Shown here: piece after piece, positions 771-4,298 of the stretch
Numbering within the stretch: the stretch's first letter is position 1
Layout: every line of letters begins with the position of its first letter
Assembly: GCA_028708195.1 (NCBI GenBank)
Contig: JAQVZK010000060.1
Span: 1 to 10,111, forward strand
Source: Desulfovibrio sp.
Lineage (GTDB): Bacteria > Desulfobacterota > Desulfovibrionia > Desulfovibrionales > Desulfovibrionaceae
Length of the DNA stretch: 10,111 nt
Direction: 5' to 3'
Notes under the pieces: generated by a model
Told to the model about the DNA's origin: nothing
The model's database searches: none
Seen by the model: only the letters and a program-made list of their open reading frames with translations
Program-made: the position numbers and the translations under genes

Positions 771-854
771 TGGTGCGAGAGGGGGGAGTTGAACCCCCAT
801 ACCTATGGTGCTGGATTCTAAGTCCAGTGCGTCTACCAATTCCGCCACTCTCGC
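771..854 (-). tRNA. tRNA-Leu, anticodon UAG, CCA encoded
   Basis: The minus strand folds as a class II tRNA of 84 nt including the encoded CCA at 773-771. The acceptor stem is GCGAGAG paired with CTCTCGC. The D arm contains the leucine-type GGTAGACGC. The anticodon arm is CTGGA, loop CTTAGAA, TCCAG, with anticodon TAG reading CUN codons. A long variable arm follows, then a T arm GGGGG, loop TTCAACT, CCCCC. It resembles E. coli tRNA-Leu(UAG) in layout. tig starts 27 nt downstream of the CCA in the same direction. Confidence 0.97.
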
Positions 855-893: not shown

Positions 894-1019
894 GCCAGTA
901 CATGGTCAGCCCCACATGCTCACTGCGCGATGGCGAAAACAGAACAGGTAAAAAAACCGCACCTCTCCTTAACTAACATCTCAAATGCCAATGGCAACCA
1001 GCAAACCCAAAAAATAGTG

Positions 1020-1025
1020 ATTATA
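1020..1025 (-). promoter_or_regulatory. Possible upstream -10 element (TATAAT)
   Basis: The minus strand carries a perfect TATAAT preceded by GCGG. With 17-nt spacing the -35 would be TCAAGA, which is poor. If used, it would give a leader of about 160 nt before tRNA-Leu. Confidence 0.25.
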
Positions 1026-1094
1026 CCGCGAAAGCGGACTCCTCTTGAGGCAATGGTTTACCCCAAAGCGCTGCCCCAGAAAACACCGCTCCTG

Positions 1095-1115
1095 TTACAG
1101 CTCAGCGCTGTAACG
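1095..1115. repeat. Perfect 8-bp inverted repeat with 5-nt loop
   Basis: GTTACAGC, a 5-nt centre (TCAGC), then GCTGTAAC. Neither strand has a T tract after it, so it does not read as an intrinsic terminator. It could be an operator or an mRNA 3'-end hairpin of selD. Its function is unknown. Confidence 0.55.
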
Positions 1116-1248
1116 TACTGAAAAAACTGTTTGGAGGTATGGACGTTGCAGAGGATGCTTTTTGGTAAAAAGGCCCCTACCCTCCGCAGATAATTTTACG
1201 CACCGACGGCTTCGGTCAGTTCGCACCACTCCGGCTGGCAACTGGTTG

Positions 1249-2307
1249 CTAGCGCAAAATAAGCGCCTTGCCGTCTGTGCGGGCTTCAGTGACCTCACCA
1301 ATCAGACAGGCCAGGTCGCCGCCAGCCAGCAACAGTTGGCGCACGTCTTCTACCTGATGGGGGTAGACAGCCAAGAGCAGTCCACCTGAAGTCTGGGCGT
1401 CAAAAGCCAGGCTTTCCACGGCTTCGTCAACACCTTCTTCCACCAGGGTCGCGCAAGCGCAGTGCTTGCGGTTCAAATGACTGCCAGCGGGGATAAGGCC
1501 GTCACGCGCATACTCCAGTGCCAGGGGCATAAACGGCAAATCCTTTGCATGCAGAACCACGCAAACGCCTGAAGCCTGAGCCATTTCCAGCGCGTGGCCG
1601 CCGAGGCCAAAGCCAGTGATATCGGTGGCTGCCGAAATTTTAAAAGTTCTGATGGCTTCACCCCCCACACTGTTCAGGCGGGAGCACCAGCGGGTAATTT
1701 CAGCCTCGCTTTCTTCGGCTCCGTCCCAATGGGCTTTGACCGCCGTTGCCAGAACCCCGGTCCCCAAAGGCTTGGTCAGCAGGAGTCGCTGCCCTGGTAC
1801 AAGGCCATCATTGCGCGCCATGTGGGTGGGATCAATGATGCCCGTGACGGCAAGTCCGTACTTGAGTTCGTCGTCCTGCACGGTGTGGCCGCCAGCCAGC
1901 ACAGCACCCGCCTCATTCATGGCATCAAGCCCGCCACGCAATATGGCTGCAAGAATGCCTTGCGGGTCGTCGTCGGCCAAAGCCTGTGGGAAAAAAGCCA
2001 CGTTCATGGCGCTCCACGGTTCCCCACCCATAGCATAGACGTCAGAAAGGGCATTGGCGGCGGCAATGCGGCCAAAGCTGAAGGCGTCGTTGACTATGGG
2101 CGCAAGAATATCCACTGTCTGCACAAGAGCGCGCCCAGGCGGCACAGTGACGACCACGGCATCTTCATTACGGGCGCGGCCAGCCAGCACACGGCCTTCA
2201 AGGTCTGGCCGGGTATCAGAGGGCAGACCGCGCAAAAGACGCTCCAGGGCCCCTGGAGCAAGCTTTGCGGCTCAGCCTGCGGCGCGGGCTTTTTCTAAAA
2301 GCTTCAT
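1249..2307 (-). CDS. selD: Selenophosphate synthetase (selenide, water dikinase), itself a selenoprotein: in-frame UGA = Sec12
   Basis: Makes selenophosphate from selenide and ATP, the selenium donor for tRNA-Sec charging. A plain ORF call begins at 2235 and loses the N-terminus. Reading from ATG 2307 gives 352 residues beginning MKLLEKARAAG-U-AAKLAPG, where U is TGA at 2274-2272. It aligns with E. coli SelD GCGCK, so Sec12 takes the place of catalytic Cys17 and Lys15 that of Lys20; the second cysteine (Cys19) is Ala14. Family motifs follow: NEDAVV (Asp49), QTVD (Asp66), GRIAAANALSD (Asp89), AGGH (His141), TKPLGTGVL, TDITGFGLGGH and DAQTSGGL. GAGGAG at 2319-2314 sits 6 nt before ATG 2307. An in-frame ATG at 2328 has no Shine-Dalgarno sequence and would add 7 residues. 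The gene is monocistronic by spacing. Since the product is a selenoprotein, its synthesis should depend on selenium. Confidence 0.93.
2231..2269 (-). promoter_or_regulatory. Bacterial SECIS-like hairpin directing Sec insertion in selD
   Basis: Two nucleotides after the UGA, the minus strand can form a 39-nt hairpin. The lower stem is CGCAAAG with TTTTGCG (six Watson-Crick pairs and one G-U). A 3x3 internal loop CTT/GTC follows, then an upper stem GCTCCAGG with CCTGGAGC (8 perfect pairs), closed by the 3-nt loop GGC. The loop begins 20 nt after the UGA and has G in its first positions, as in known bacterial SECIS elements bound by SelB. It lies inside the coding sequence, as expected in bacteria. 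Confidence 0.85.
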
Positions 2308-2678
2308 GCGCGTCTCCTCGTCAAGCATTGTGGTGGATTAAAAACTCTTCAAAGTATGCGCTCATAGGGAGCAAAGGTCAAAACAAGACAGACTGCGGCA
2401 GTATACCACGCATAAGCGTTACCAGTCCCGTGCATACAACGGATACAGCTTAAGCAAATACCCTTGTGGCAACGGCATGCCTGAATGGACTGCCGCTGGA
2501 GCCAAGCGTTTAGGCAGGAGACTTTTTGTAACACGCGGAAGCAGAATAAAAGTTTTAGAGGGAGGGGGAGGAGGCTCTTTTTCAGAAGGGTCCCTTCCCC
2601 ACAAAGCATTTTAAACTGAGACACTCTGAGCCTCTACCCTACAACGTACTGTAAGCTATCATGATCTTTGGCATGCCC
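2308..2678. other. Intergenic region between the rplQ terminator and selD
   Basis: It holds the candidate selD promoters at its selD end. It also has an 18-nt pure G/A tract on the plus strand at 2557-2574 with runs of 3 and 5 G. A minus-strand frame at 2624-2349 (91 codons, GTG start) is cysteine-rich, has no family resemblance and no good ribosome binding site, so I do not call it a gene. Confidence 0.6.
2353..2381 (-). promoter_or_regulatory. Candidate sigma-70 promoter of selD
   Basis: The minus strand has TTGACC (2381-2376), a 17-nt spacer and CATACT (2358-2353), 5 of 6 and 4 of 6 matches to consensus. A start about 7 nt downstream would give a leader of about 40 nt to ATG 2307. An alternative extended -10, TGGTATACT, lies some 45 nt further upstream near 2400. 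Confidence 0.55.
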
Positions 2679-2710
2679 AAAAGCAAAGGGGGCGAAAAAC
2701 GCCCCCTTTG
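2679..2710 (-). terminator. Intrinsic terminator of the alpha operon (after rplQ)
   Basis: Perfect 11-bp stem CAAAGGGGGCG / CGCCCCCTTTG (2710-2684) with a TTTTT loop on the minus strand, followed by CTTTT. It begins 30 nt after the rplQ stop codon. The T tract is short but the stem is very strong. Confidence 0.85.
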
Positions 2711-2740
2711 AATATAAGCATAACCCCAGAAAAAGCTTGC

Positions 2741-3265
2741 CTAGTTGGCTTCGCCTTCTTCCTTGGCGGGTGCAGCCGTGGCTTCTTCAGCCTTCGGTTT
2801 GCGAGCGCGCTTGGGCTTGGCGGCAGATTCATCTGCGGCGGCCTTGGCTTCCTTGACAGGAACGGCCTTGGCAGCCTTTTGAGGAGCGTCAGCCACAGCG
2901 GCGTCGCTGCTGTGGGTCAGTTCAATAATAGCCATAGGGGCGTTGTCGCCTTTGCGGGGCATGGCCATTTTGAGAATACGGGTGTAACCGCCGGGCACGC
3001 CAGCGAAGACAGGGCCGATTTCATCAAACAGACGCTTGACCAGGGCATGATCATTGAGCACACGGTAGGCCTGACGGCGGGCGTGCAGGTCATTGCGTTT
3101 TGCAAGGGTAATGAGGGGCTCCACAACGCGGCGAAGCTCCTTGGCCTTGATTTCCGTGGTGCAGATTTTGCCGTGGATCAGCAGCGCCTTGGCGAGATTG
3201 TGCAACAACGCCTTACGGTGTGCAGGAGTCCGCGAAAATTTCCTGCCGGAATTGCTATGCCTCAT
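2741..3265 (-). CDS. rplQ: 50S ribosomal protein L17 with long C-terminal tail
   Basis: Large-subunit protein near the exit side of the ribosome. It has 174 residues. Residues 1-117 are the conserved L17 core, beginning [20 protein letters not shown] and including LFDEIGP and GGYTRILKM, and ending IIELT. Residues 118-174 are a low-complexity tail rich in Ala, Lys and Glu (such as [20 protein letters not shown]), about 55 residues longer than the usual protein of roughly 120. The ATG overlaps the last 11 nt of rpoA in another frame, so the two genes are translationally coupled; AGGAAG lies 8 nt before it. It is the last gene of the alpha operon, just before a strong terminator. The tail is open and in frame with no sign of a frameshift, and its codon use looks like the rest of the gene. 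Confidence 0.97.
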
Positions 3266-4298
3266 TTTGCTGCTTCCTTTTCCATTCCTGATATTTCTTG
3301 TCGAAAGAGTCGACCTTGATGCCGAAGTCGAGTCCCATACTCAAAAGCATGCTCTTGATTTCGTCCAGCGATTTGCGGCCGAAATTCTTGGTCTTGAGCA
3401 TTTCAGCTTCGGTACGCTGCACCAGTTCACCCACAAGCGCAATATTGGCGCTACGCAGGCAGTTGGTGGCACGAACAGAAAGCTCAAGATCGTCGATGCT
3501 TTTGAAGAGGTGCTCATTGATTTCGCCGCTTTCGCCACTGCCATTGCGCATGTCGCCGGATACACGTTCATCAAAGTTGATGAAGACGGATATCTGATCT
3601 TTTATGATCTTGGCGCTGTAAGCAATAGCATCTTCAGGCGTAAGGGAGCCATCAGTCCACACTTCCAACAGAAGACGGTCATAGTTGGTCATCTGGCCAA
3701 CGCGGGCCTGCTCCACCGTGTACGCAACCTTGCGAACAGGGGAGAAGCTGGAATCCAGCTTGATGAGTCCGATTTCTTCGTTCAGGCCTTCGTGCATGTC
3801 CGCGGGCTCGTAGCCCTTGCCCATGCGGGCCTCCAACTCCATCTCCAGCACTACGTCCTCGGTGAGGGTCGCAATGTGCAAATCAGGGTTGAGTACTTCA
3901 ACGTGCTGGTTGGCCGTAATGTCGGCAGCCGTCACCGCGCCCTTGCGCTCGACCCGGAGGGTCAGGCGCTGGGGCTCTTCAGTGTCCATGCGCAGACGCA
4001 CCTGCTTGAGGTTCAGGATGACATCAGTGATATCTTCCTGAACGCCATGAATGCTGGTGAACTCGTGCTGGACACCGATGATTTTTACCGACACAAAGGC
4101 CGCCCCCTGAAGGGAGGCCAGAAGGACGCGCCGCATGGCATTACCGATGGTGGTGCCGTAGCCCCGTTCCAATGGCTCGCAGACAAACTTGCCGTGCGTA
4201 CCGCTGGCGGTCTCTTCTTCGCGCATAATCTGATCGGGCTTGACAAGCTCTGACCAGTTGCGCGCATTGATAAGGCGTTCGCCCTGTTTAATAAGCAT
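3255..4298 (-). CDS. rpoA: DNA-directed RNA polymerase subunit alpha
   Basis: Alpha subunit, whose dimer nucleates assembly of core RNA polymerase and whose C-terminal domain contacts UP elements and activators. It has 347 residues, somewhat longer than E. coli (329). The N-terminal domain (about 1-240) contains the dimer motif [20 protein letters not shown] at residues 45-64. A flexible linker (about 245-262, [12 protein letters not shown]) leads to the C-terminal domain with [16 protein letters not shown] (271-286). Arg276 there corresponds to the DNA-contacting Arg265 of E. coli, and [11 protein letters not shown] (305-315) forms the helix-hairpin-helix part. It ends in a short basic tail. 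The start is ATG, 12 nt after rpsD, with a weak GGGGGT as ribosome binding site. Its 3' end overlaps rplQ by 11 nt. Confidence 0.99.

Follow-up and report, generated by a model that had tools for sequence, protein, structure and literature searches.

Selenide, water dikinase (SelD) is described as a selenoprotein in many organisms (PMC12013277). Mariotti et al. (2015; PMC4561486) reported Sec in 19% of the SelD genes of their reference prokaryotes and Cys in all the others, and they regard the enzymes with Cys as active. For the genus Desulfovibrio, Table 3 of Zhang et al. (2006; PMC1794560) lists SelD as a selenoprotein of D. vulgaris and D. desulfuricans. The gene described here comes from a 10,111-nucleotide stretch of Desulfovibrio sp. 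DNA (the window), and shares genus, enzyme and selenoprotein character with the entries in that table; as far as the comparison went, it differs in species alone. The first-pass annotation of the window had stated that selenoprotein SelD as a class is not new, and that table puts Desulfovibrio itself on record. A literature search for Sec in the protein listed no paper that deals with Desulfovibrio SelD, judging from titles and abstracts.

Three further described systems are also among the closest to the window's SelD. The E. coli enzyme (3u0o) belongs to the same family, aligns over residues 2-349 and shares its Lys20, whereas its Cys17 and Cys19 correspond to Sec12 and Ala14 in the window's SelD. 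The chain crystallised in 2yye and 2zod ('Selenide, water dikinase'), which we take to be Aquifex aeolicus SelD, has the motif GCAAK, with Ala at the second position like the window's SelD but Cys at the site where the latter has Sec12; the native A. aeolicus residue at this site is presumably Sec. Finally, the orphan SelD of the selenium-cofactor trait, found with YqeB/YqeC, is of the same protein family (PMC4561486 and PMC9312934). Unlike the genomes with that orphan form, the window's genome has Sec machinery and no yqeB match.

The selD frame contains a single UGA at the catalytic position

On the minus strand of the window, the selD frame runs from ATG 2307-2305 to TAG 1251-1249 and is open save for one in-frame TGA, codon 12, at 2274-2272 (Table 1). 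The read-through protein scored 320.9 bits against the TIGR00476 selD model (cut-off 125), placing it in the SelD family, whereas its score of 275.1 bits against NF002098, another model for SelD, was below that model's cut-off of 299. Pfam matches included both of the AIR synthase-related domains. Aligned to E. coli SelD (193.9 bits), the protein has residues 12, 14 and 15 opposite Cys17, Cys19 and Lys20, respectively; the in-frame UGA is therefore opposite the Cys of homologues, and U12 is followed three residues on by K15, the arrangement of the catalytic position. The closest named relatives were those of Desulfovibrio sp. MES5 (L048; 92% identity) and D. intestinalis (P0003; 89% identity). 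It had been claimed from the window alone that the UGA is codon 12 opposite E. coli Cys17 and that the essential Lys keeps its +3 spacing, with alignment of the 352-residue translation to the SelD family as the proposed check. Frame and alignment agree with both claims, and orthology is plain from TIGR00476 and 3u0o.

Table 1. Positions of features in the window.
Feature	Position	Strand	Basis
tRNA-Leu, downstream of selD	771..854	-	RF00005, 62.7 bits
selD (selenide, water dikinase), 352 aa, predicted Sec at residue 12	1249..2307	-	translation; TIGR00476 320.9 bits; 3u0o 193.9 bits
Weaker lower SECIS stem, 2271-2263 with 2237-2230	2230..2271	-	fold; longer than in synonymous recodings
TTG called as start (residue 25); GGAG 2245-2242 in the hairpin 3' arm resembles a ribosome binding site	2233..2235	-	
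Bacterial SECIS hairpin, eight Watson-Crick pairs and a closing U-G, triloop GGC	2240..2260	-	fold; pairs and codon bias in relatives
SECIS apical loop GGC, 20 nt past the UGA	2249..2251	-	fold; G in the loop-heading columns
Lys15 codon, opposite E. coli Lys20	2263..2265	-	3u0o alignment; Lys in 86/86 relatives
Ala14 codon, opposite E. coli Cys19	2266..2268	-	3u0o alignment; Ala/Ser in 86 relatives
UGA codon, predicted Sec12, opposite E. coli Cys17	2272..2274	-	frame and 3u0o alignment; codons of relatives
Shine-Dalgarno-like GAGGAG, 6 nt 5' of ATG 2307	2314..2319	-	read directly
rplQ (presumed), upstream of selD	2741..3265	-	ORF list

The ORF upstream of selD is presumably rplQ, judging from its sequence. 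Of the 98 selD loci, 28 had a same-strand rplQ on their upstream side, although the flanks of many loci were too short for it to be seen, and in those 28 the distance between the rplQ and selD matches ranged from ~140 to 1,680 bases. Between the two genes in the window, positions 2308-2740 form a stretch of ~430 bases without a clear gene.

The UGA and its motif are conserved among relatives

SelD loci were taken from 61 genomes and, as a further 50 loci, from genome contigs, the two sets overlapping; labels beginning with G, L and P denote genomes, loci and database proteins. The UGA site is reached in 97 of the 98 loci (L115, which ends at a contig end, was left out). These yielded 86 proteins, the window's own included, that were distinct within the first 200 residues compared; near copies remain among them, and they are mutually non-independent. 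At the Sec12 site, the 86 carried TGA in 81 cases, TGC in three and TGT in two, and neither TAA nor TAG in any. The motif was U/C-A-A-K in 71, U-A-S-K in 13 and U-G-A-K in two, and each of the 86 had Lys three residues past Sec/Cys (among the 98 loci, the motif with Lys was matched by 97, L115 being too short). Opposite E. coli Cys19, 73 relatives had Ala, 13 had Ser and none had Cys. In the E. coli enzyme, this second Cys is dispensable. The earlier observation that Ala replaces this Cys thus stands as regards Ala14, but it is no peculiarity of this gene.

The first-pass annotation had accepted that a TGC or TGT in place of the TGA would count against it. A Cys codon misread as TGA through sequencing or assembly error might be entertained for a draft as fragmented as this one (344 contigs, 78% complete). 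However, 81 of the 86 distinct proteins (the window's included) have TGA at this codon, and they come from many assemblies, among them those of named isolates, and the window's own hairpin and codon choice suit Sec decoding. Because of this recurrence, we consider the chance that an error lies behind the TGA to be negligible.

The hairpin past the UGA bears marks of selection

The predicted RNA fold contains a SECIS hairpin that the first-pass annotation had not noted: positions 2260-2252 pair with 2248-2240 to form the upper stem, and a lower stem reaches back toward the UGA. The bacterial SECIS (bSECIS) model, as outlined in a 2026 review (PMC13188914), has an upper stem of 4-16 bp and a loop of 3-9 nt whose first two positions hold G; most elements lie 16-37 nt from the UGA. 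With 8-9 bp, a 3 nt loop, GG and 20 nt, the window's selD hairpin showed no departure from the model as outlined there; it is a bSECIS hairpin within 16-37 nt past the UGA with G heading a small loop. Taken alone, the window's hairpin was modestly unusual, with a z of -1.87 against dinucleotide shuffles (9 of 200 folded as well) and of -2.05 against synonymous recoding. The latter was used as the control because the hairpin stretch is also coding.

When the hairpin was scored across the 81 Sec relatives, standard pairs occupied 613 of 648 cells (94.6%), compared with 20-52% after one side had been shifted by 1-3 nt. In the five Cys forms, the count was 23 of 40 (57.5%), a level that one of the shifted pairings reached in these forms as well. 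Of the 81 Sec relatives, 59 had the complete set of eight pairs and 75 had six or more in succession, the exceptions being L034, L079, L091, L093, L097 and L106. Two-sided changes were seen in the pairs nt 16-34 (GC, CG, UA) and nt 23-27 (GC, AU), and every Sec relative (81/81, fixed columns) had G in one of the two loop-heading columns. Relative to synonymous recoding, folding had a mean z of -1.81 in the 81 Sec rows and -0.47 in the five Cys rows; z lay below -1 in 60 of the former (21 did not) and in three of the latter.

Codon choice within the hairpin is the clearest mark of SECIS selection. In counts that leave out two Fenollaria rows, the Ala codon of the hairpin was GCT in 54 of 54 cases, compared with 13% elsewhere in the same genes; the corresponding figures were 56/79 against 9% for CCA (Pro), 63/65 against 23% for GGG (Gly), 76/79 against 49% for CTG (Leu) and 69/73 against 48% for GAG (Glu). 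These comparisons show that the hairpin has been selected beyond the protein sequence.

Two further searches bear on the same positions. A pattern scan of 900-3300 proposed a terminator at 2260-2240; this candidate is the SECIS hairpin, and the scan gave four hits where shuffles gave a mean of 3.5 (sd 1.4), so it was rejected. At gathering thresholds, Rfam returned nothing at the hairpin site, the sole match listed for the window being a tRNA. Separately, the two Fenollaria loci (L091 and L093; Bacillota) carry a TGA-SelD without the Desulfovibrio hairpin, and their folding was weaker than that of recodings (z +2.4 and +1.6).

Translation start and mis-annotation of selD

A GGAG precedes the same ATG in 12 of 16 rows examined, the window among them (L026, L028, L029 and L036 are without it). 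Codon differences were counted in 12 near relatives (66 non-independent pairs), out of 30 rows with an ATG at the same place. Codons 2-11 showed 300 synonymous and no nonsynonymous differences, codons 13-24 showed 211 and 83, and the ten triplets preceding the ATG showed 35 and 570, respectively. The selD frame upstream of the UGA is evidently coding and under purifying selection. The first-pass annotation had described the codons before the UGA as a proper SelD N-terminus with a good ribosome binding site; the former is borne out by these counts, and the GAGGAG that lies six bases 5' of the ATG, at 2319-2314, could plausibly serve as a Shine-Dalgarno sequence.

In the table-11 ORF list, the selD frame starts at TTG 2235, giving 328 aa, in agreement with the prediction that standard calling would begin there and lose the catalytic residue. 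Database proteins follow the same pattern: among the best 120 of 7994, 118 start past the Sec position, at query residue 25 in 37 cases and at residue 16 in 30. Of the remaining two, P0047 has Cys at the site and P0098 is longer, with an unaligned N-terminus. One of the best 120, P0018, is named 'selenocysteine-containing' by one source; some annotators are therefore aware of the Sec. Selenoprotein genes are usually misannotated, as stated in the text of Mariotti et al. (2015; PMC4561486). Here, the GGAG in the 3' arm of the hairpin, six bases before the TTG, may favour start calls at residue 25. Surveys relying on predicted proteins would class these SelD enzymes as incomplete.

The same GGAG, six bases upstream, might act as a ribosome binding site if the UGA were a true stop and translation restarted at TTG 2235 (residue 25) to produce a SelD without its catalytic residue. 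TTG also accounts for 31 of 76 Leu codons (41%) at this site, compared with 13% elsewhere in the genes. However, just 33 of 79 relatives have a start-like codon there, and TTA is enriched too (11/76 compared with 4%). The TTG/TTA bias can be explained without a start because the U-rich 3' side makes the lower stem, which is long: its mean run was 5.18, compared with 4.30 in synonymous recodings (sd 0.12; maximum of 200, 4.67; 79 rows). Further arguments against a restart are the purifying selection on codons 2-11 (300 synonymous and no nonsynonymous differences in 66 pairs) and the codons at the UGA site, where the 86 relatives have no TAA or TAG and all non-TGA codons encode Cys. On the coding selection before the UGA and the codon evidence at the TTG, we rejected the internal start, which we regard as very improbable.

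Sec machinery in the window's genome and in 61 genomes

The draft genome to which the window belongs is 78% complete and comprises 344 contigs with a total of 2.30 Mb. A genome lacking selA, selB and selC had been named in advance as evidence against a selenoprotein gene; the search found all three. The matches were selA (577.8 bits; cut-off 267.9), selB (308.9 bits, 339 with a C-terminal piece; cut-off 242.25) and a tRNA-Sec, selC (78.6 bits; gathering score 47), called by ARAGORN as tRNA-SeC with anticodon tca. The genome also encodes a formate dehydrogenase alpha subunit (FdhA) with one in-frame TGA (1272.7 bits). A second, partial match to this subunit (G000:C245:7-570; L127) likewise has one in-frame TGA. 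One SelD match was found in this 78% complete draft. For MnmH (tRNA selenouridine), the genome had no match over the cut-off (best 20.8 bits), as against two of the 61 genomes over it, and for yqeB it had no match, 12 of the 61 being over the cut-off. In two related genomes (G019:C64 and G033:C27), a single cluster of ~5 kb holds selD, selB, tRNA-Sec and selA; in the window's genome they are on separate contigs.

SelD orthologues were found in 48 of the 61 genomes, 44 with TGA, three with Cys (G009, G018 and G035) and one cut (G055). A 25-bit match in a 49th genome, G001, was taken for a paralogue. Among the 44 genomes with TGA-SelD, selA was over the cut-off in 41, selB in 42, and a tRNA-Sec of at least 70 bits was present in 42; at least one of the three was found in all 44 and at least two in 42. 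Missing were selA in G014, G047 and G051, selB in G017 and G020, and selC in G020 and G051. G017 is 99% complete, and the other four are 74-94% complete, all under 95%. The 13 genomes that by these marks had none of selA, selB and selC comprised none with TGA-SelD, two with Cys-SelD and 11 in which no SelD was found. A recheck with the family model covered seven of these 11 (all except G003, G004, G030 and G032) as well as G024 and G052, and gave nothing over the cut-off.

The tRNA-Sec mark of 70 bits was our own choice, the matches being split into those of at least 72 bits (46 genomes) and those of at most 52 bits. At the gathering score of 47, tRNA-Sec would be counted in 52 of 61 genomes, the extra six being G001, G003, G010, G030, G035 and G051 (47-50 bits), all except G051 among the 13 lacking the machinery. 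We took these 47-50-bit matches for other tRNAs because weak matches of this kind also occur in genomes that have a strong one.

Two genomes, G024 and G052, have selA, selB and tRNA-Sec, yet no SelD over the cut-offs. In G024 (100% complete, 60 contigs), no selD was seen in the 1.5 kb that follow rplQ (L130), and an assembly gap may hide the gene. In G052 (490 contigs), rplQ was not found either, making an assembly gap likely.

Cys forms of SelD and the selenium-cofactor trait

A tree of the 86 SelD proteins, built by a quick method from residues past the start of the hairpin region and left unrooted, was used only for counting Sec/Cys changes. At least three changes of the label were required, two of them forced by the starred branches. 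The direction would be from Sec to Cys because the Cys forms lie among Sec forms on this unrooted tree. One pair of loci, L079/L099 (G027), carries a TGA-SelD that groups with the Cys forms and is without the usual hairpin, three of the eight pairs being present in a row; selA, selB and tRNA-Sec are present in its genome. Perhaps these loci use another SECIS shape or represent a return to Sec.

Two of the genomes with Cys-SelD, G009 (L030, L122) and G035 (L039, L121), have neither selA nor selB over the cut-off, and MnmH and a strong match to tRNA-Sec are likewise absent. In the third, G018 (L080, L102), SelD has Cys though selA, selB and tRNA-Sec are kept. yqeB was over the cut-off in both G009 and G035, compared with 10 of the 59 other genomes. 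In G035, yqeB and selD are 1.5 kb apart, and the interval contains, on the opposite strand, a MocA-like gene (136.7 bits, below the cut-off of 186.45) as well as yqeC (162.5 bits; cut-off 73.05). The joint presence of SelD, YqeB and YqeC is a reliable mark of the selenium-cofactor trait, according to the account of it in PMC9312934. G035 fits this trait because the three were found together, and G009, where SelD and yqeB were seen, may have it as well. Judging from gene content, both genomes seem to show this trait following a loss of Sec decoding.

In mammals, thiophosphate is known to allow Cys to be inserted at UGA. The UGA of selD might similarly be real but partly read as another residue (e.g., Cys via thiophosphate) under selenium shortage, leading to a mixture of enzymes. 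The five distinct relatives with Cys at the site are in keeping with this, as is the activity ascribed to Cys forms in the cited part of PMC4561486. Such partial reading would supplement Sec insertion instead of taking its place, and we consider it quite unlikely.

Proposed decoding and its meaning for Desulfovibrio

Taken together, the frame, the orthology, the conserved UGA, the selected hairpin, the presence of selA, selB and selC, and another UGA gene in the same genome leave us with very little doubt that selD of this Desulfovibrio encodes a selenoprotein, its UGA12 being read as Sec with SelB and the hairpin to give a catalytic Sec12. From the same sequence data, we infer the actual insertion of Sec, catalysis by SelD and the feedback described below. 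Ribosomes would begin at ATG 2307 and reach the UGA at codon 12, where SelB, on the hairpin just past it, would bring Sec-tRNA-Sec; Sec12 would be inserted and translation would go on to 352 residues. Beside Lys15, Sec12 would stand in for the catalytic Cys of the E. coli enzyme. SelD would make selenophosphate out of selenide and ATP, and SelA would take this selenophosphate to form Sec on tRNA-Sec. Since selenophosphate feeds Sec synthesis by SelA, SelD would depend on its own product. The resulting feedback loop, in which the selenium-donor enzyme would need selenium for its own synthesis, is soundly reasoned.

A stronger form of this dependence would make selenium use a self-sustaining switch, in which cells that have run out of Sec-SelD could restart solely by priming, e.g., through low-level Cys insertion. 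The idea arises because the sole SelD found in the genome (a 78% complete draft) needs Sec in its own active site; we regard it as rather unlikely. If true, SelD proteins with Cys in this genus would be escapes from Sec dependence; two of them belong to genomes (G009 and G035) that have retained SelD without any sign of Sec decoding.

A Sec-containing SelD is thus well supported as true, ordinary for Desulfovibrio and already known. Biased codon choice within the hairpin provides a simple quantitative indication that a SECIS is functional. With both Sec and Cys forms, and with members that have Sec decoding and members that do not, the genus would be a good setting in which to study what keeps Sec in SelD.
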